A DNA stretch of 64,000 nucleotides from Aestuariimicrobium kwangyangense DSM 21549 (lineage in GTDB: Bacteria > Actinomycetota > Actinomycetes > Propionibacteriales > Propionibacteriaceae). This document shows positions 885-29,906 of this stretch, piece after piece. The stretch's first letter is position 1; each line of letters opens with the position of its first letter. The translations under genes were made by a program, and so were the position numbers. Location of the stretch: assembly GCF_000421525.1 (NCBI RefSeq), contig NZ_ATXE01000001.1:248001-312000 (forward strand). Reading direction: 5' to 3'. The notes under the pieces were generated by a model. It saw only the letters and a list, made by a program, of their open reading frames with translations, was not told the origin of the DNA and made no database searches.

Positions 885-3852
<2,968 letters not shown>

Positions 3853-4722: not shown

Positions 4723-7470
4723 ATGACTGACACTCCCGACGAGCCCACCCCCGGCACCGACGACATCCGCGACGAGGCGTCAGGCACCGCACCGGGGCAG
4801 GCAGCCGAGACGCAGTCCTTGGTCGATGACATCGAGGCCCCCAACCACGGCCGCATCGAGCCGATCGACCTGCGCGACGAGATCCAGAAGAGCTACCTCG
4901 ACTACGCGATGAGCGTGATCGTGGGACGAGCGCTGCCCGACGTCCGCGACGGTCTCAAGCCCGTGCACCGCCGCGTGCTCTACGCGATGTACGACGGCGG
5001 CTACCGTCCCGACCGCGGGTGGAACAAGTGCTCCCGCGTCGTCGGTGAGGTGATGGGTCTCTACCACCCCCACGGTGACTCGGCGATCTACGACACCTTG
5101 GTGCGCCTGGCGCAGCCGTGGGTGATGCGCGCGCCGCTGGTCTCGGGGCAGGGCAACTTCGGTTCGCCCGGCAACGACAAGGCCGCCGCCATGCGGTACA
5201 CCGAGTGCAAGATGGCTCCGCTCGCCATGGAGATGGTGCGCGACATCGACCAGCAGACGGTCGACTTCAAGCCCAACTACGACAACCGCGAGCAGGAACC
5301 CACCGTGCTCCCGGCACGGTTCCCCAACCTGCTGGTCAACGGGTCGACGGGCATCGCGGTCGGCATGGCCACGAACATCCCCACCCACAACCTGCGTGAG
5401 GTGTCCGAGGCCGTGCTCTGGTCGCTGGCCCACCCCGAGGCCAGCGAGGAGGAACTGCTCGAGGCCGCCATGGCCCGCATCCAGGGCCCCGACTTCCCCC
5501 AGGGCGCCCTGATCGTCGGCCGCAAGGGCATCGAGGACGCCTACCGCACCGGCCGGGGCCTGGTCACCATGCGCGCGGTGATCAAGGTCGAGGAGGACAA
5601 GAACGGACGACAGCTCCTGGTCGTCACCGAGCTGCCCTACATGTGCAACCCCGACAACCTGGCGCTGAAGATCGCCGAGCTGGTCAACGCCGGCAAGCTG
5701 TCGGGCATCGCCAACCTGGTGGACGAGACCTCCGCTCGCACCGGCCAGCGGCTCGTGATCGTGCTCAAGCGGGACGCCCAGCCCCGCGTGGTGATGAACA
5801 ACCTGTTCAAGCACACCCAGCTGCAGGACACCTTCGGCTGCAACATGCTGGCCCTGGTCGACGACGTGCCCCGCACGCTGCGGCTCGACCAGTTCATCAG
5901 CCACTGGGTGACCCACCAGCTCGAGGTCATCCGCCGCCGCACCGCCTTCCAGCTGCAGGAGGCCGAGGCTCGCGCCCACATCCAGCGCGGTCTGGTGAAG
6001 GCGCTCGACAAGCTGGACGACGTCATCGCCCTGATCCGGGCGTCCCGCACCACCGAGGCCGCCCGTGAGGGCCTGAAGGACCTGCTCGACATCGACGATG
6101 ACCAGGCCAACGCCATCCTCGAGATGCAGCTGCGCCGCCTGGCCGCCCTGGAGCGGGAGCGCATCGTCTCCCGCCTGGCCGAGCTCGAGGCCCAGATCGC
6201 CGACCTGGCCGACATCCTCGCCCGCGAGGAGCGCCAGCGCGAGATCATCTCGACCGAGCTGACCGAGATCGTCGACAAGTACGGCGACGAGCGCCGCACC
6301 CAGATCGTCGCGGCCGACGGCGACTTCTCCGACGAGGACTTCATCCCCGACGAGGACGTGGTCATCACCCTCACCCGCGGCGGCTACATCAAGCGCACCA
6401 ACACCGACCAGTACCGCGTGCAGCGTCGCGGTGGCAAGGGAGTCCGCGGAGCGAAGCTGCGCGCCGAGGACGAGGTCGACGCCGTCTTCACCACCACCAA
6501 CCACCACTGGATCCTGTTCTTCACCACCATGGGTCGGGTCTACCGGATCAAGGCGTGGCAGGTGCCCGAGGGTGGCCGTGACGCCAAGGGCGGACACGTC
6601 GCAGGACTGCTGAGCTTCCTGCCCGACGAGCGGATCGCCCAGGGCATCCAGATCCGCACCTACGACGACGCCCAGTACCTGCTGCTGGCCACCCGGAAGG
6701 GTCTGGTCAAGAAGACCGAACTGGCCGCGTACGACACCCCGCGCCAGGCCGGCGTCATCGCCATCAACTTCCGCGACGAGGACGACGAACTGATCGGTGC
6801 CGACATCGTCGGCCCTGAGGACGACGTGCTGCTCATCTCGAAGAAGGGCCAGGCGATCCGTTTCTCGGCGGCGGACGACCAGGTTCGTCCGATGGGGCGT
6901 GCGACCTCCGGCGTGACCGGCATGAAGTTCCGCTCCGACGACGAGTTGTTGTCGATGGCGGTGATCCGCTCCGACGCCGACGAGGACTCGCTGTTCGTCT
7001 TCACGGTCACCGACGGTGGCTTCGCCAAGCGGACCGCTGTCTCGGAGTATCGCCGCCAAGGTCGCGGCGGCCTGGGCATCAAGGCCATGCGCCTCAACGA
7101 GGACCGCGGGTCGCTGGTCGGTGGCCTGGTGCTGGGTGAGACCGACGAGGTGATCGCCATCAAGCAGTCCGGGCAGATCACCCGGTCGTCGGTCAGCGAG
7201 GTCGCGGCGAAGGGCCGCGACACCATGGGCGTGAAGTTCGTCGGTGTGCGGGGCGAGGATTCCGTCATCGCGATCGCGCTCAACCCGGAGGCACGCGCCA
7301 ACCAGGCGTTGGGTGTCACCGAGGTCGACGATTCGGACGAGGGTCTGACCGAGGATGGCGGAGAGTCGGAGTCCACGGAGGCTGTGGACGACGATGCTGC
7401 CGGTAGCGTGGGCACGACGGAGACCGCTGACCCGGAGCCCGAGGGCGCCGACCAGGAGGATGAGCAGTGA
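4723..7470 (+). CDS. gyrA: DNA gyrase subunit A
   Basis: Breakage-reunion subunit of gyrase, 915 residues. A disordered acidic head (about 1-40) precedes the winged-helix and tower domains. The catalytic tyrosine is Tyr159 in AAAMRYTE. The quinolone-resistance region reads [10 protein letters not shown], with Ser120 and Asp124 at the positions of E. coli Ser83 and Asp87, so the common target residues are of the sensitive type. The GyrA box QRRGGKG begins near residue 567 and opens the DNA-wrapping C-terminal blades. The tail (about 855-915) is strongly acidic, as in many actinobacteria. The stop overlaps the GTG of the next gene, so the two are co-translated. Confidence 0.97.
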
Positions 7471-8228
7471 GCGACAACACCCGCCCCGGCGGCCAGCCGC
7501 CCTCCTTCGGTCAACCCCCGGCCCAGCCCGCCCGACGGGGCGGCGCCAGCGTCCCGGGGACGAACGCGGACGGCCGGCCCGGCTTCTCGGCCCCCGTCCA
7601 GGGGAGCACCGTGACCCCGGGTGGCCGAGCATCGGCGGACCCGGGTGAGCCCAGCTTCGGCGAACGGGCTGCTGACCGGGCCAAGGATGTGTTCGGCTCG
7701 GCCCGTGGTGCCATGTCGAGCGCCGCCACCTCGGTGTCATCGGCCGCCTCGACCGCGGTGTCGTCAGTCGCCTCGACCGTCAGTGGTGACACCGACCGGG
7801 CCAAGGACGCGGTGCCAGGTGCACCGGCGGTCGCGGCCCGTGCTGGGTCGTCGCGGCGGACCCGCAAGGCGCGCCTTCGGTTGTCGCGGATCGATCCGTG
7901 GTCGGTGATGAAGACCGCGTTCCTGTTCGGGATCGCCGGCGGCATCATCTTCTTCATCAGCATCTGGGTGCTGTGGGGCGTCATCGTGGCCTCAGGGGTG
8001 TTCGAGAGCGTCAACCGAGCGGTGAACGACCTGCTCAACACTCCTGGTGCTGCCGACCGCTTCCACCTCGAGGACTACCTGAACGGCAACCGGGTGCTCG
8101 GCTTCGCGGCCATGATCGGTGCGGCCGACGTGGTGATCTTCACGGCTCTGGCCACGCTGTTCTCGTTCCTGTACAACCTTGCCGCCACCGTGATGGGTGG
8201 CCTCGAGGTCACCCTCGCCGAGGACTGA
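7467..8228 (+). CDS. DUF3566 membrane protein
   Basis: 253 residues. A long disordered N-terminal region rich in Pro, Gly and Ser (about 1-130) precedes the DUF3566 domain, which has two membrane helices (about 149-170, [20 protein letters not shown], and about 212-240). This family commonly sits directly after gyrA in actinobacteria; its function is not established. The GTG start overlaps the gyrA TGA (GTGA), which indicates translational coupling to gyrase. Repeated Ser-Ala segments ([17 protein letters not shown]) lie in the linker. A membrane role is the only inference the sequence allows. Confidence 0.88.
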
Positions 8229-8303
8229 CGGGCTGCTCCCGACGTCGGTTGAGTTGGGCGAGGGACGAGCCCAGGGCGAAACCCCTCCGACGTGCTCCTG
8301 GAT

Positions 8304-8333
8304 TTGGGCCGACGCCGACGGATCCGCTAGAGT
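8304..8333 (+). promoter_or_regulatory. Probable tRNA-Ile promoter
   Basis: TTGGGC, an 18-base spacer and TAGAGT form a plausible housekeeping promoter whose -10 ends 30 bases before the mature tRNA. Confidence 0.5.
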
Positions 8334-8363
8334 TTCCACTTGCGTGACCGCCTTGGCGGTGAC

Positions 8364-8437
8364 GGGCCTATAGCTCAGTCGGTTAGAGCGCTGCCCTGAT
8401 AAGGCAGAGGTCACTGGTTCAAGTCCAGTTAGGCCCA
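8364..8437 (+). tRNA. tRNA-Ile (anticodon GAT)
   Basis: A complete cloverleaf. The acceptor arms GGGCCTA and TAGGCCC pair perfectly. The D arm contains AGCTCAGTCGGTTAGAGC, the anticodon stem CTGCC/GGCAG encloses GAT (8398-8400), and the T arm contains GGTTCAAGTCC. The discriminator is A; the CCA end is not fully encoded (ACCC follows). It is separate from any rRNA genes in this window. Confidence 0.97.
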
Positions 8438-8445
8438 CCCTTTGC

Positions 8446-8477
8446 AACCCGCCCCTGACAAGGGGCGTTGTTGTTTC
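8446..8477 (+). terminator. Terminator after tRNA-Ile
   Basis: GCCCCT and AGGGGC pair around a GACA loop, followed by GTTGTTGTTT. It is a conventional rho-independent signal placed directly behind the tRNA. Confidence 0.75.
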
Positions 8478-8541
8478 TGGGGGCGACGGGGTCTCCTAGG
8501 GGTCTTAGGTCTCGGTTCTCTCGCTGGAGACCGGAGTCACC

Positions 8542-8742
8542 ATGCCCACTACCCTTCACCTCACCCTCGAGCGGCTGTTGGCCGTCGAGGTTCTTCCTAC
8601 CCTTGACGGGGTCGACGTCGACCACGACCGGCTCGTGACCGCGCTCGCAGAGGTGGAGCCAGACGAGGTCGCGAACCTTGATCTCGCCTGCCAGGCACTG
8701 GCACATGTCGGACTCTCGGTCGAGGGGGTCGAGCTGGTGTGA
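8542..8742 (+). CDS. Small protein of unknown function
   Basis: 66 residues, acidic and leucine-rich, with no cysteines other than one and no membrane segment. A GGAG-type ribosome site lies upstream of the ATG (CCGGAGTCACC). The stop is two bases before a GTG that could open the next frame, which is typical of compact accessory gene strings. I do not recognise the family. Location directly after a tRNA gene suggests it is left over from an integrated element; this is inference. Confidence 0.4.
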   Translation: MPTTLHLTLERLLAVEVLPTLDGVDVDHDRLVTALAEVEPDEVANLDLACQALAHVGLSVEGVELV

Positions 8743-8743
8743 C

Positions 8744-9214
8744 GTGGCTGGGCCGTGCGACGTGACGGACGGTGGCACCGTCCTTCACGCCCGGATCGTC
8801 GCGCGCGCCGAGCGGTTCGACGTTGAGTTGCACGCCTGCGACAAACCGACCGGTGAGCGCACCGATGTCGGCGTCTACGCGTGGCCCGACATCGACACGC
8901 CCATGACGGCGACCGAGGCACGGGCCTTGGCGGCTGCACCCATCGAGGCTGCCGACCTGCTCGAGGGGTCCGGGCATGAGCACCAGCGCAGCGGCCAGCA
9001 CGGCCCGGACGGTCGCCCCAGCTTCACCCAGGAGCGCGACGGCGAAAGGGCGGCGGGTCAAGCACCTGTACTGGGTCGAGGACAGGCGGGTGGCCCTCGA
9101 GATGGGGGTGACGGAGGTTCCCTGTTGCGTCATGGGCGGGGAGCTCTCGCCCGCCGTATCGGGTCGCAGGCACGGTGTTCGGCGCTCTTTCCCCCAGATT
9201 TCTTTCCACCCTGA
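8744..9214 (+). CDS. Possible small accessory gene, C-terminal part doubtful
   Basis: The first 75 or so residues look coding (TVLHARIVARAERFDVEL, then TEARALAAAPIEAADLLEG, a motif seen in small helical accessory proteins). After about residue 78 the translation becomes low-complexity Gly, Arg and Gln, and a different frame, beginning with the ATG at 8976, looks more protein-like. The simplest reading is that the gene has lost its own end through a frameshift near 8975. Function is unknown. Confidence 0.3.
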   Translation: MAGPCDVTDGGTVLHARIVARAERFDVELHACDKPTGERTDVGVYAWPDIDTPMTATEARALAAAPIEAADLLEGSGHEHQRSGQHGPDGRPSFTQERDGERAAGQAPVLGRGQAGGPRDGGDGGSLLRHGRGALARRIGSQARCSALFPPDFFPP

Positions 9215-9479
9215 ACCGAGGGTGCCCGATGGCCACGGCCCCTCGCCAAGATTTCAGGTCTGCGGACTGCGAGTCACCTCCACAAGGCAGGTCAGGCAGG
9301 GTGCTCCTTGGGCTCCCCCCTCTCCCTCAAAGGGGGTGGGCCTATCCCCAACCGACCCCCTCCTGACCAGCGTTGGTGAGGTGAAAAAAGCCCGGGGAGG
9401 GTTCAAAGATTTGAGGATCGCCAGAGGGCGCAGAACCCAACAGACCCCGCCCGGGGTTGTGCCCGGTCGGGGTCTCTGA
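8976..9479 (+). CDS. Possible small accessory gene, start and end doubtful
   Basis: The first 70 residues have a believable composition and codon pattern (KGRRVKHLYWVEDRRVALEM, GVTEVPCCVMGGEL). Beyond about residue 75 the translation is proline-rich and looks noncoding. It overlaps the previous frame, so both cannot be entirely real. A CC pair in VPCCVMGG might bind metal, but that is not testable here. It belongs to the same degenerate patch beside tRNA-Ile. Confidence 0.28.
   Translation: MSTSAAASTARTVAPASPRSATAKGRRVKHLYWVEDRRVALEMGVTEVPCCVMGGELSPAVSGRRHGVRRSFPQISFHPEPRVPDGHGPSPRFQVCGLRVTSTRQVRQGAPWAPPSPSKGVGLSPTDPLLTSVGEVKKARGGFKDLRIARGRRTQQTPPGVVPGRGL
9442..9475 (-). terminator. Hairpin downstream of the small minus-strand genes
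   Basis: AGACCCCG pairs with CGGGGTCT, and an inner CCGGG/CCCGG extends the stem. On the minus strand a CCCGGGCTTTTTT run follows about 60 bases further on. It would end transcription of the small genes at 9520-9952, or of cobN read-through. Confidence 0.45.
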
Positions 9480-23980: not shown

Positions 23981-24401
23981 TCCCCACCCACGCCGGCGAG
24001 GACCACCAGGGTGGTCGTGAAGGCGACGCTCCCACGCGGGCCCTGCGTGAGGGATCCGCCGGTTGAAGCCACTCCGGTCAACGCGGGGGGGGGGGGGGGG
24101 GGTGGACGCCAGGCGCCGCGACCCCTGACGTCGGCGACTGGAGCTCCCTACCACCCCGGACAGCCGGTCCCTCACCCACCAGTGCCAAAAGCCTGCGAGA
24201 TCACACCCTGGAGCGAGCCCCGCCACGCCTCCCACCAGTGATGTTCCTATGAACTCAGATCTACCGGAAGAGCCCTGCCGGTGGGCCAAGGGCCCACGTC
24301 CTGGGGTCCCGGTGATCACCACATTCGCTGGTCCTGCTGGGGGCGGTGGCTGCCCCGGCTGACGTCACCGACCTGGCGGCCGCCGACCCGGGCCGTGGGC
24401 T
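23981..24401. other. Gap with no supported gene
   Basis: Both strands show only short, low-quality frames. On the minus strand HHWWEAWRGSLQGVISQAFG looks protein-like but is cut by a stop 24 residues in. The stretch holds the G18 run and probably decayed DNA between the permease pseudogene and the bluB-cobT riboswitch. Confidence 0.4.
24085..24102 (+). repeat. Run of 18 G
   Basis: Eighteen consecutive G on the plus strand, far longer than any other homopolymer in the window. It lies in a stretch without a supported gene. It could vary in length during replication or be miscounted in sequencing. Confidence 0.9.
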
Positions 24402-25882
24402 CACTCATCGACGAGCCCCTGCTCTGCGGACTCCAAAGGTTCACCGACCTGACGCGCCGCACCCGGACCCAGGATTCCCAGGGCCCAGAACATGCCGGCG
24501 GCACTCGTTCCGGCGATCAGCCAACCGAGGGCGTTCTGACGCGAACCACGTGCCGGACAGTGCCCCCGAGAACCACACCACGTCGCCGACCTGCACCCGG
24601 GTGAACTGAAGGGCGACCACGATCGCCACGATCCATGCCGTCAGGGCCGTCCAGCGGACGCCGCCCTGATACCAGTATGTGCTACCGGCGCGGGTGTCGA
24701 CGATGCCGGCCTGATCGAAGTGTCGGCGGTGGGTCATGTCGACAAGGACGACGCCTGCCCACGCCGTGAGCGGGACGGCGAGCAACGTGAGGAACGTCAT
24801 GAATGGCCCGTAGAAGTCGTGGGTGATGACGGTCATGTACAGCCCGCCCACGGTGATCAGGACGGCGTCGACCGCGAGGGCCGTCGCGCGACGCACCTTG
24901 ATGCCCCCCGTGATGAGATTCAGACCGGAGGAATACATGGACAGGTCCGCCGCCGCGACGAGGCCGAACACGGCGGTGATGAGATACGGAATGACCATCC
25001 AGCCGGGAAGCGAAGCACCGATGGCGCCCACGGGATCACTCGCCGACGCCAGATCCTTCTTAGTCAGGGCCATGAGCGCGCCCAGGCTGATGAGCGCGAC
25101 GAGGGGCAGGGAGGCCCCGGCCACAGTCGCAGCGACCACGTTGCGCGACGGCACACGCCTGGGCAGGTAGCGAACGTAATCGGCCCCGGCCGACAACCAC
25201 CCCAGGCCCGTTCCAGCAGCGATGAACCCCAGCCCGCCCATCACCGCAGGGAATGGGGCGGCAGGAGTGGCGAGAACTGCCGACCAGTGGACCTTGACGG
25301 CGAGGAAGACCCCGATGGTCAAGGTCAGGGCCCCGAACACCCAGGTGAGCCATTTCTGGATCCACATGATGGTGGCATGGCCGAACACCCCGATACCCGC
25401 GGACACCGCAACCACAGCGAGCAGGCAGATCACCGTCGCGATCGGGCCGGTGGATAGGCCGAGGAGGTGGATCGTGGCCAAGAGCGCATAGGCGGCCGTG
25501 GTGCACATGATCGTTTCCCAGCCGACGAAGGACAACCACGAGACCAGCGTCGGCGCCCAGTTACCTCGGACGCCGAACACGGCGCGGGACAGGGTGAGGG
25601 CGGGCGCACCGCCGGTCTTCCCCACCGTGCCGAGGAGCCCGACCAGAAGAAACGACCCGACCGACCGACCACCGCGACCACGATCGACTGGAGCACGCTC
25701 AACCCGGTGAAGGTCACGAGCACGGCACCCAGGGTGATGCCGAGGACTCCCATGTTGGCCCCGAACCAGGTCCAGAAGAGTTCGAGCGCTCCGCCGTATC
25801 GTTCGCAGTCGGGCACAGGCTCGATTCCTCGCGTCTCGACCACCCCGACTCGGGGAAGTTCGTTCGTCATCGATTCACTCAT
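24402..25882 (-). pseudogene. NCS1 family (cytosine/purine/thiamine type) permease, two frameshifts
   Basis: The product would be a 12-helix cation symporter of the NCS1 family (ELFWTWFGANMGVLGITLGA, SFVGWETIMCTTAAYALLA, GADYVRYLPRRV). A single protein can be read only across three frames. The first break is in a (GACC)3 tandem repeat at 25659-25670. The second is near the 3' end, around 24537, after GALSGTWFAS; the true C-terminus continues in another frame as NALGWLIAGTSAAGMFWAL and stops at 24402. The ATG has AAGGAG six bases upstream. It follows cobS on the same strand, so a base or precursor transporter for lower-ligand synthesis is conceivable. Substrate cannot be told from sequence. 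Confidence 0.75.
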
Positions 25883-26017
25883 CGGTTCTCCTTGATCCAT
25901 CGGGCTCCGGCCCGCTTCCTCGTCGATGTCACACTCGTTGGCCGTCCCTCACACCCTGCGGCTGGGGACCGCCACCCCGCGCTCAGCACTGACCGCGTGC
26001 CGCGTCCTACTCCACGC

Positions 26018-26788
26018 CTACAGCAGTGCGGCCATGACCCAGAACACCGCTTGGGTCGTTTCGATCAGGGAGCCGAAGGTGTCTCCCGTAAGACCGCCCA
26101 GACGCCGGGTCAGATGGGATCGCCACCCGCCCGAGACCGCCAGCGCGATCACTGATGCGGACCCGTACCCCAGCGCCCCGTGAACGCCGCCCACCAGCCA
26201 TCCGCCGCCCGTCGCGACAGCGGTGACGGCCAGCGCGGAGAACAGAGCCGCGAATGCCCCGGTCACGCCCACGAACAGGGCGCCGAATCCGCCCTCTCGG
26301 GCCCCGGGCACACCTCGACGGGTCGCGATCACCACGGCGCAGCGCCCGACGGCGGGTCCGACCATCAGGGCGACCGCAGGTCCCCCGGGACCATGCGTCG
26401 ACGCCAGCGCCGCGACGTCGAGCAACAGCGCGGCCACGATGCTCGCGACACCCATCGGGCCGATGTCAGACCTGCGCATGATCGCGAGTGCCTCGGACGC
26501 CGGGCGGCGCGATCCGAGCCCGTCCGCGGTGTCCGCCAGCCCGTCCAGGTGCATGGCGCCGGTGAGCCTCTGCAGCACCAGCAACCCGCAGACCGCCGCG
26601 AAAGCGTCAGACCCGGTGCGCCACCGGACACCGAACCCGAGCGCGCCGGCGATCACGCCCAAGCCGAGTCCAAGGAGGGGGAACACCCGGATCGCCCTAG
26701 CGGCCAGCCCTCGGTCGATCCGCGCGGTGAACGGGGCGGGGACGATCGTGAACAGGCCCAAGGCGGCGGTCAGCCCCCGCTCAGACAT
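26018..26788 (-). CDS. cobS: Adenosylcobinamide-GDP ribazoletransferase (cobalamin synthase)
   Basis: Joins adenosylcobinamide-GDP with alpha-ribazole (or its phosphate) to finish the nucleotide loop; an integral membrane enzyme. 256 residues with several hydrophobic segments, the signature MHLDGLADTADGLGSRR, the MRRSDIGPMG motif and the C-terminal LGGLTGDTFGSLIE. The ATG overlaps the end of the cobU frame by eight bases, so it is co-translated with it. It appears intact, unlike its upstream neighbour cobU and downstream neighbour permease. Confidence 0.94.
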   Translation of the reverse strand: MSERGLTAALGLFTIVPAPFTARIDRGLAARAIRVFPLLGLGLGVIAGALGFGVRWRTGSDAFAAVCGLLVLQRLTGAMHLDGLADTADGLGSRRPASEALAIMRRSDIGPMGVASIVAALLLDVAALASTHGPGGPAVALMVGPAVGRCAVVIATRRGVPGAREGGFGALFVGVTGAFAALFSALAVTAVATGGGWLVGGVHGALGYGSASVIALAVSGGWRSHLTRRLGGLTGDTFGSLIETTQAVFWVMAALL

Positions 26789-27220
26789 CGCGGCTCCCGC
26801 CCTTGACCAGGACGGGGATGCCGCTCACGCACAAGCACATCTCGTCGCATTCGGCCGCGACCCGCGCGTTGAGCAGTCCCAGCATGTCCCTGAAGACCCC
26901 CCGGATCTGTGGTCGGGGACAACTCCCCAGCCGACCTCGTTGGTCACGAGGACGACGTCGCGCGCTGTCGTCCGCACGGCTGCAACCAGGCCGTCGATGT
27001 CCCCGCCCAGCCGCGGGGTCGGGCCGACCCAGGCGCCGTGCCGGTCCATCACCCGGGTCAGCCACAGCGAGAGGCAGTCGACCAGGACGGCCCACTCGGG
27101 ATCCTCCGGCGAGGGCGGAAAACCGGTCGCGACATAGTCGGTGTCTCGGCCGCCGAGCAGGGATTCGGCGGCGCGTGACTTGCCGGACCGGCTGCTCCCG
27201 GTGACCAGGACGCGGGTCAT
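26781..27220 (-). pseudogene. cobU: Adenosylcobinamide kinase/guanylyltransferase, internal gap plus frameshift
   Basis: CobU phosphorylates and guanylylates adenosylcobinamide. The P-loop VTGSSRSGKSRAAE, the VDCLSLWLTRVMD segment and VLVTNEVGWGVVP are clear. Two defects show. First, DPEWA runs straight into VLVDCL, whereas CobU proteins have about 30 residues between, including the guanylylated histidine and the RRP segment. Second, after DHRSG the frame changes at a C6 run (26897-26902; G6 on the coding strand). One more G would restore VFRDMLGLLNARVAAECDE up to the stop that overlaps cobS. The start overlaps the preceding small gene (ATGA). Function is probably lost unless the indels are errors. 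Confidence 0.8.
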
Positions 27221-27384
27221 TCCCCGGACTGCCCGTCGGTGCGATCGCGCGTCCCGGCCTCGTAGACGGTCGCCATGCCGCGCCGGATGGCGGCGGATCT
27301 GCTGGCCGGGCGGCCAGCTGAGGCCGGGCCCGGGGCGGTCTCGTCGACGGGTTCGATAGCGGATATCAACTCCGTGGTCGTCAT
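27217..27384 (-). CDS. 55-residue protein of unknown function in the cob operon
   Basis: Its ATG overlaps the cobB-cobC stop (ATGA) and its stop overlaps the cobU start (ATGA), which is strong positional support for translation. The N-terminal half is acidic and Ala/Pro-rich; the C-terminal half, RSAAIRRGMATVYEAGTRD, is basic. No cysteine or membrane segment is present. I do not recognise it. A small helper or linker protein of the late corrinoid steps is possible but not shown. Confidence 0.6.
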   Translation of the reverse strand: MTTTELISAIEPVDETAPGPASAGRPASRSAAIRRGMATVYEAGTRDRTDGQSGE

Positions 27385-29906
27385 CGGGTCTCCTCGTGGT
27401 CGGATGATCCGTGGGTGGAGGCCGTGGATCCGGTGGGGGCGGGGTCCGGAGGTCGGCCGGATAAGAGGACGTCCCGGATGGCACTGACAAAGGCCTTGGA
27501 GGTGTCGGGGTCTCGCACCGCGACGCGGATCCAGCCATCGCCGAGCCCGGGGAACGTGTCGCCGCGCCTGACGGCGAATCCACGCGTGACCAGCCGGTCG
27601 CGGATGCCGACACCGGTGTTCACCAGCACGAACGGTGCCTGAGACGGGACGACTCTCAGCCCCGCCTCCTCCAGCAGTCCCACGAGCTCGGATCGATCGG
27701 ACGCCGTCCGCCGCGCGAGGTCGGCCGCATCGGCCCGGGCCTCGGGACTGAGGCAGGCGGTGATCGCATCCAATGCCGGCGTCGAGACACCCCAGTGGGC
27801 CTGCTGCGCCCTGAGCCGGGCGATGAGCTCGGGGTCGCCCACGACATACCCGGCTCGGATCCCCGCGAGCCCCCACGTCTTGGTGATCGACCGCAGGACA
27901 AGGGTCCGGGTAAGGTCCACGCCGGGGGCGAGCAGACTCTCCCCGGCACCCGGCACAGCGTCCATGAATGCTTCGTCGACCACCAGAACCGCGCCCGGAT
28001 TCCGGATCACCTGCAGGCGCGATGCGGGATGCAGCACCCCGCTCGGATTGGTCGGGTTTCCAACGAAGACGGCCTGCGTGTCCGCGCTCGCCAGCCGGGT
28101 GGCTGCCCGGTGGTCCAGGACGAACGGGGCGGGAAGGATGAGGTGTCGGACGGGCGCCCCGACGGCCCGCAGCGCCTCGTCGGGTCCGGAGAACTGTGGG
28201 TGCACGACGATCGAACGGGGTTGGAGCGCCCTGGCGATCAGAGTGAAGGCCTCCATCCCGCCGGCCGACGGCAAGACGGCCTCGAGCGGGACTCCGTGTG
28301 CCGCGGCGATGGCCTCCCGGGCCGGGGTGTCGTCAGGGTAGTGGAGCCAGCGCGCGGGGTTGGCGACGAGCCGGTCGACCAGCCACGCAGGTGCCTCCCG
28401 ACGTACGTTCACCGCGAGGTCGATGAGCCCGGGCACCGCGTCGAGGTCGCCGTGATGCAGGAATGCGGTGCCGCTGCCGGGAGCGACGAGGACTGGTTCG
28501 GGTTCAGGTTCAGTCCGCTCCCATCCCCGCCCGGAGGCCGCGAACGCCGCGGCCGCGTCCGCGAGCCGTTGAGCGAACAGCGGGAAGCCCGCCCAGTGCA
28601 CGTGCTGGTAGCTGGCGAGCAGGCTCGGGACGCCGCTGGTGGACCGGGTGAAGCCGTCGCCGCGCTCCCCCACCCGCCAGGCCGGCTGATTCGGCGCCGA
28701 CAACAGGCGGGTGTGGTGGAACTCGTGGGCGTGCACCCGCTCCCCGGCCCGAGCGACCAGCGAGTCGGCCGTGGCCACCACTTCGTGGTAGCCCAGTGTC
28801 AGGCGCGGGGACATCACGGCGTCCACCGGCAGTGCGCCGGCCATCGGAGCTCCATCGAGGCTGCGGGACAGGTAAAGCAGCCCAGCGCACTCGGCTACGG
28901 TCGGAACGCCGGCCGCAACCGCGGCGGCCACATCGGCCCTGAGACGGGCGTTGGCGCTGAGCCGGTCGGTGAACACCTCGGGGAACCCGCCCCCGATGTA
29001 GATCCCTGTCGTACCGGCCGGCAGCCCCGGGTCGCTCAAGGGGTCGAACGTCACAACCCGGCAGCCTGCGGCCGCGAGCAACTCCGCATGTTCCGGATAG
29101 CCGAACGTGAAGGCCCGCCCGGTGGCGACGGCGATCACCGGGGTCCCGGACACCGGGCGGACCTCAGCCGCGGGGCACCAGTCCGTGTCGCCCAGGGGTG
29201 GCGCGGACTCCGCAACCTCGCGCAGCAGGTCGAGGTCGACGTGGGCACCGACCAGGTCGACAGCCGCGGCGACCATGTGCTGGGCCGAGTCCAACTCGGC
29301 CGCGGGCACCAGTCCGAGGTGGCGTGAGGGAACCTCCACCCCGGTGGCGCGCGGGATGGACCCGAGGACCGGCACCCCGAGGCCTTCGATGCTGGCTCTC
29401 AGCTCGGTGAGGGTGCGACCGCCGTACGACCGGTTGAGGATCACCCCCGCGACCCGCACGTCCGGGTCGAAGCGGGTGAGCCCCAGCACGGTCGCGGCCA
29501 CCGTGGTGCTCGCCCGGGACACGTCGACGACAAGCACCACCGGGGTCCCGGTGAGCCGGGCGACGTGCGCGCTGGACCCGAGGCCGTTGCTGCATGTTCG
29601 CCCGTCGAACAGGCCCATGACCCCCTCGATGAGGGCCAGGTCGGCGGGGCGCGGGGCATGGAACCCGTGCCGCAGCAGGGGGACGATGCGCTGCTCGCCG
29701 CACAAATGAGGGTCGAGGTTACGGCACACCCGGCCGGCCGCCACGGCGTGGAAGCCGGGATCGATATAGTCCGGCCCCACCTTGAACGGCGCGACCTCGC
29801 GGCCCTGGCCCCGGAGGGCCCCGATGAGTCCCATGGTCACGGTCGTCTTGCCCTGGCCCGAGGAGGGCGCCGCGATCAACACCCGCGGGATCGGCGTAGG
29901 GCTCAC
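27381..29906 (-). CDS. cobBC: CobB-CobC fusion: cobyrinate a,c-diamide synthase and threonine-phosphate decarboxylase-like enzyme
   Basis: 841 residues. The first part (about 1-465) is CobB/CbiA: a dethiobiotin-synthetase-like P-loop APSSGQGKTT, then a glutamine amidotransferase with nucleophile Cys340 in ECAGLLYLS. It amidates the a and c side chains. The second part (about 470-815) is a PLP aminotransferase-fold enzyme of the CobC/CobD type, with the PLP lysine in SITKTWGLAG (Lys676), which makes or handles the aminopropanol arm. The GTG start overlaps the cobQ stop (GTGA). A linker rich in Glu and Pro (RTEPEPEPVL) separates the halves. It is the only amidating a,c enzyme seen, so both pathways would use it. 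Confidence 0.92.
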   Translation of the reverse strand: MSPTPIPRVLIAAPSSGQGKTTVTMGLIGALRGQGREVAPFKVGPDYIDPGFHAVAAGRVCRNLDPHLCGEQRIVPLLRHGFHAPRPADLALIEGVMGLFDGRTCSNGLGSSAHVARLTGTPVVLVVDVSRASTTVAATVLGLTRFDPDVRVAGVILNRSYGGRTLTELRASIEGLGVPVLGSIPRATGVEVPSRHLGLVPAAELDSAQHMVAAAVDLVGAHVDLDLLREVAESAPPLGDTDWCPAAEVRPVSGTPVIAVATGRAFTFGYPEHAELLAAAGCRVVTFDPLSDPGLPAGTTGIYIGGGFPEVFTDRLSANARLRADVAAAVAAGVPTVAECAGLLYLSRSLDGAPMAGALPVDAVMSPRLTLGYHEVVATADSLVARAGERVHAHEFHHTRLLSAPNQPAWRVGERGDGFTRSTSGVPSLLASYQHVHWAGFPLFAQRLADAAAAFAASGRGWERTEPEPEPVLVAPGSGTAFLHHGDLDAVPGLIDLAVNVRREAPAWLVDRLVANPARWLHYPDDTPAREAIAAAHGVPLEAVLPSAGGMEAFTLIARALQPRSIVVHPQFSGPDEALRAVGAPVRHLILPAPFVLDHRAATRLASADTQAVFVGNPTNPSGVLHPASRLQVIRNPGAVLVVDEAFMDAVPGAGESLLAPGVDLTRTLVLRSITKTWGLAGIRAGYVVGDPELIARLRAQQAHWGVSTPALDAITACLSPEARADAADLARRTASDRSELVGLLEEAGLRVVPSQAPFVLVNTGVGIRDRLVTRGFAVRRGDTFPGLGDGWIRVAVRDPDTSKAFVSAIRDVLLSGRPPDPAPTGSTASTHGSSDHEETR

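Follow-up and report, generated by a model that had tools for sequence, protein, structure and literature searches.

The cob cluster of Aestuariimicrobium kwangyangense DSM 21549 contains a cobU that appears broken, raising the question of whether this gene has been inactivated and which enzyme would then carry out its steps in B12 synthesis. CobU/CobP is a bifunctional AdoCbi kinase and AdoCbi-P guanylyltransferase, with Salmonella CobU represented by PDB 1c9k and 1cbu. We analysed a window of 64,000 nucleotides (the whole stretch of DNA under study) together with the host genome (G000), an assembly of 2,990,149 bases in 5 contigs with completeness 100 and contamination 0.53.

Organization of the cob cluster

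On the minus strand, the order of genes is cobQ (31474-29903), an intact cobBC fusion (27381-29906; NF053748, 1045.9 bits against a cut-off of 950), the cobU relic (26781-27220), an open cobS (26018-26788; PF02654, 140.8 bits against a cut-off of 23.2), a broken NCS1-type permease (24441-25900; PF02133), a cobalamin riboswitch (23867-23698) and a bluB-cobT fusion (23687-21888). Against the NCBIfam cobS models, this cobS does not reach the curated cut-offs. Further B12 genes around the relic encode a cobaltochelatase-type subunit, corrinoid adenosyltransferase, CbiB, SUMT (CobA), precorrin-8X methylmutase, CobM, CobI and precorrin-6A reductase, and the window contains five cobalamin riboswitches in all (Rfam). 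A short frame lies between cobBC and cobU (27217-27384; MTTTELISAIEP...). Its start is common to a frame in the reference contig described below (MTITELITAIEP...), and the window version is ~80 nt longer.

The closest relative found is contig DAIESZ010000313.1 (hereafter L037), 9578 nt long and labelled as a Propionibacteriaceae metagenome-assembled genome (MAG). In the corresponding position, flanked by cobBC and cobS, it carries an open cobU of 180 residues (2906-3448, ~90% identical DNA). The window locus is known from one strain of the species and our comparison rests on this contig. The matching contig of the MAG is listed under another GTDB genus (G046, g26; G197). Since the ~90% identity exceeds the 84% seen in the rpoB region between the host genome and another g26 member, L037 may be misbinned or transferred; the comparison of the cobU genes is independent of either. 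Close to its cob genes, L037 also carries an IS21-type transposase pair (IstA-like and IstB; 7182-9271). Elsewhere in the cluster, on the cobK to cobI side (42160-39846), a g26 MAG (L145, G026:C208) is 95-100% identical to ~2.2-2.3 kb of the window, with flanks mostly 77-89% identical, as would be seen after recent recombinational exchange or in a chimeric contig.

Lesions of the cobU relic

Three-frame translation, PF02283 matches in pieces and alignment to the intact L037 orthologue delimited the relic, which is read in two frames. The first (26903-27220) opens with an ATG at 27220 and runs from the start and P-loop (MTRVLVTGSSRSGKS...) through PEDPEWA, joined directly to VLVDCL, and NEVG to VVPDHRSGG, up to a run of six G. 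Beyond it the open frame continues out of register and ends with a stop at 26825. A different frame encodes the C-terminal part (26781-26896; VFRDMLGLLNARVAAECDE...KGGSRDV), which ends over the cobS start, with its stop at 26781. Pfam CobU accordingly matches the window copy in three pieces over two frames (positions 1-40, 74-136 and 128-166 of 168), and no single open reading frame spans the whole domain.

Compared with L037, the relic has three gaps, of 99, 3 and 1 nt. The 99-nt gap is in frame, removes 33 codons and falls between 27091 and 27090; a CCG triplet at both edges of the segment in L037 leaves the exact deletion point ambiguous by ~3 nt. The 3-nt gap is near 27018. The 1-nt gap is near 26899, at the site of the frame change, a G6 run on the coding strand that corresponds to a C run on the plus strand (26897-26902) and is 1 nt shorter than in L037. 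None of the disabling lesions occurs in this intact orthologue at the same place, the mark of a pseudogene. Both defects thus lie where the preliminary description had placed them, at the in-frame join of DPEWA to VLVDCL and at the G6 run after DHRSG, and its argument that the first cannot be a single-base read error is borne out by the 99 absent nucleotides.

Among the missing 33 codons is the one for the residue that aligns with His46 of Salmonella CobU (PDB 1c9k; numbering counted along the aligned chain), a chain that the intact L037 CobU matches over residues 4-174. The title of a reference listed in PMC8749415 identifies His46 as the site of guanylylation. The following R-P and W also lie within the missing segment, so the relic has lost the guanylyl-acceptor His together with these residues, in agreement with the earlier reading that the stretch with this His and RRP is absent. 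All 41 intact CobU rows compared (39 distinct) keep His, R, P and W; the set comprises the best-scoring of the matching loci, covering part of the 142 matching genomes, and both copies from this genus. We therefore rejected the possibility, raised in the same description, that related CobU proteins lack the segment too. The relic still fits the P-loop pattern GxxxxGKS (GSSRSGKS, with the first G and the K present), and one P-loop Gly of L037 is replaced by Ser. Measured against Salmonella CobU and the CobU-CobP family (PF02283), it retains the P-loop, VDC and NEVG segments but is missing 33 residues, the guanylyl-acceptor His among them, and its C-terminal part has fallen out of frame.

Decay of neighbouring genes and age of the loss

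The permease, which is open in L037, has two frameshifts relative to that copy, near 25664 and 24541. In L037 it is followed by a PfkB kinase gene. The permease-kinase region extends over 4342-6712 in L037 and over 24381-25900 in the window, where two alignments to L037 meet at 24384 (minus strand) and ~840 nt (L037 5850-6690) are absent, including most of the kinase gene. A search of the window for PfkB kinase (PF00294) gave no match below E 0.7. With the permease frameshifted and the kinase gone, cobU sits in a stretch that is losing genes, in which cobS is still open. No relatives of the permease or the kinase were found in the other fetched loci (E 1e-15). As a speculation, this pair between cobS and bluB-cobT might help the cell to take up a nucleobase or nucleoside such as a lower-ligand precursor. 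cobU and cobS overlap in L037, and the first frame of the relic ends 36 nt before the cobS start; loss of this overlap could lower cobS translation.

We scanned 54,623 predicted coding nucleotides of the window for frameshifts with a purpose-written codon-usage hidden Markov model (HMM). Of 21 same-strand frame changes, five were marked as possible frameshifts. Gene overlaps account for two of these (SUMT with the methylmutase, and cobM with cobI); of the remaining three, cobU has one and the permease two. The same scan marked two frameshifts in L037, none in the 18,096 nt surrounding the second cobU described below (L035) and none in 17,264 nt of another genome (G001, L036).

These results bear on whether the locus is really intact and the gaps, or at least the 1-nt change, are errors of sequencing or assembly. 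The 1-nt change does fall on a homopolymer run, three 1-nt indels occur within 2.4 kb, and the remaining cobU codons look constrained. Similar splits in relatives include one that comes from two N in the assembly: G042 seemed to lack the same region as the relic, likely owing to an assembly gap. However, absences of 99 nt and ~840 nt are not base-call errors, and once the two gene overlaps are set aside the scan marks frameshifts only in cobU and the permease. This clustering makes assembly noise unlikely as the main cause. cobBC and cobS are, moreover, free of indels relative to L037. A seven-G run is absent at the matching L037 position (GGGGAGAG), so the relative gives no support to a homopolymer miscounted from seven to six. 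Taken together, an artefact is improbable.

We then estimated dN/dS between the window and L037. cobU gave 0.17 (bootstrap 0.08-0.33) over 143 comparable codons, 37 codons touched by gaps having been left out; the values for cobBC, cobS and the permease were 0.29, 0.10 and 0.24. The raised ratio that relaxed selection leaves in a relic was not seen, the cobU value not standing above those of its intact neighbours. Because it is not raised, we take the break of cobU, from these sequence comparisons, to be recent.

The low dN/dS could also be read as the sign of a shortened but working protein, in which slippage on the G6 run restores the C-terminal frame and a CobU without the guanylyl-acceptor segment keeps a kinase or structural role. 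The run lies exactly at the frame change, where a -1 shift would join both frames as we read the sequence, and the P-loop Lys and NEVG are retained. Such a protein would nevertheless lack 33 residues, including some found in all 41 rows, and would carry the Gly to Ser change in its P-loop; the adjoining permease and kinase genes are decaying as well, and a recent loss accounts equally well for the low dN/dS. We consider this very unlikely.

A second, full-length cobU in the same genome

A profile search of the host's own genome, a check proposed in the preliminary description, identified a second, full-length cobU at C1:91178-91756. It shares a contig with the relic, lying ~183 kb from it and ~156 kb ahead of the window, and comprises 193 codons with no internal stop. 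The match to PF02283 covers positions 1-167 of 168 with 168.2 bits (cut-off 27). The whole domain lies in one frame, with P-loop, His, R-P, W, NEVG and SGR. All 12 checked motif positions are present, and the protein aligns with PDB CobU chains over its length. Its score against NCBIfam NF004469, 156.2 bits, is just below the equivalog cut-off of 161.

The gene has cobS and SUMT directly upstream, forming a cobA-cobS-cobU cluster at C1:89.5-91.8 kb (L035 8031-10257). This second cobS passes the Pfam cut-off and is below the curated NCBIfam cut-offs. Three B12 functions are thus duplicated in the genome: cobA (SUMT), cobS and cobU. No riboswitch was found at the Rfam gathering threshold in the 20 kb examined near the second cobU, and its regulation may therefore differ from that of the window cluster.

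In a tree of 42 rows, the relic groups with L037 (support 100/98). The second CobU is placed with a sequence from a Micrococcales MAG (97/94); its branch is long (1.06) and its exact position unsure. Its best matches in the order (293 genomes, 251 with a match) are 57-60% identical; three of the first four belong to family f3 and one (G038, 58%) to the window's own family. In the one other genome of the genus, the match is 47% identical. A recent duplication of the window copy was rejected because the best matches reach 57-60% and are mostly outside the family, with 47% in the genus.

One further arrangement would divide the two-step enzyme between two genes, the slippage product keeping AdoCbi kinase activity (or a structural role beside CobS) and the guanylyltransferase step having moved to the second CobU; this we regard as barely credible.

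cobU in the family

PF02283 matched in 142 of 197 family genomes, in 141 of them above the cut-off. Besides the host, four genomes (G031, G076, G137 and G169) have two near-full-length cobU places. In G076 the scores and spans of the two are equal, which may reflect a single sequence that was assembled twice. Within the family sample a second cobU is thus unusual without being unique.

Split or weak matches occur as well. In a one-contig genome of the family (G075), the only cobU match is split over two frames (L151, G075:C1:1029500-1032800), and in two genomes (G011 and G151) the matches are partial and lie on different contigs. Genus g22 gave weak CobU-like matches of ~65-71 bits; of two genomes fetched, one had a short N-terminal match and one had none.

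The cited passages of PMC3534718 report 32 recent single-lesion pseudogenes in P. acidipropionici and note that the organization of cobT, cobU and bluB differs between propionibacteria. As far as those passages describe the P. acidipropionici pseudogenes, the relic resembles them in having decayed recently and in keeping most of the gene conserved. It differs in combining a deletion with a frameshift and in being accompanied by an intact CobU of another lineage.

Discussion

We conclude with high confidence that the window cobU is a recently inactivated pseudogene whose loss is probably tolerated owing to a full-length second CobU of another lineage. In the sequence of events that we propose, an in-frame deletion of 99 nt, possibly between short repeats such as the CCG triplets at its edges, would have removed the segment with the guanylyl-accepting His, and the loss of 1 nt would have shifted the reading frame of its final part. 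The second CobU, which is probably expressed and active, would perform both the AdoCbi kinase and the AdoCbi-P guanylyltransferase step, and its presence may have relaxed selection on the window copy. Counting against redundancy as the cause of tolerance, cobS is likewise duplicated, yet intact at both places. Counting against the second CobU as the working copy are its NCBIfam score below the cut-off and its long branch.

The preliminary description had argued that the host would need another enzyme, for example CobY, or depend on others for complete B12. This was right in form; the enzyme in question is the host's own second full-length CobU, and neither CobY nor dependence on an outside source need be assumed.

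The relic probably reflects ordinary gene decay, harmless given the intact second copy. For pathway annotation it is a caution: a broken late-step B12 gene within a cob cluster does not mean that the step is missing until the rest of the genome has been searched. The locus offers a small, clean case of recent gene loss, with a dissimilar copy of the enzyme apparently covering the step.
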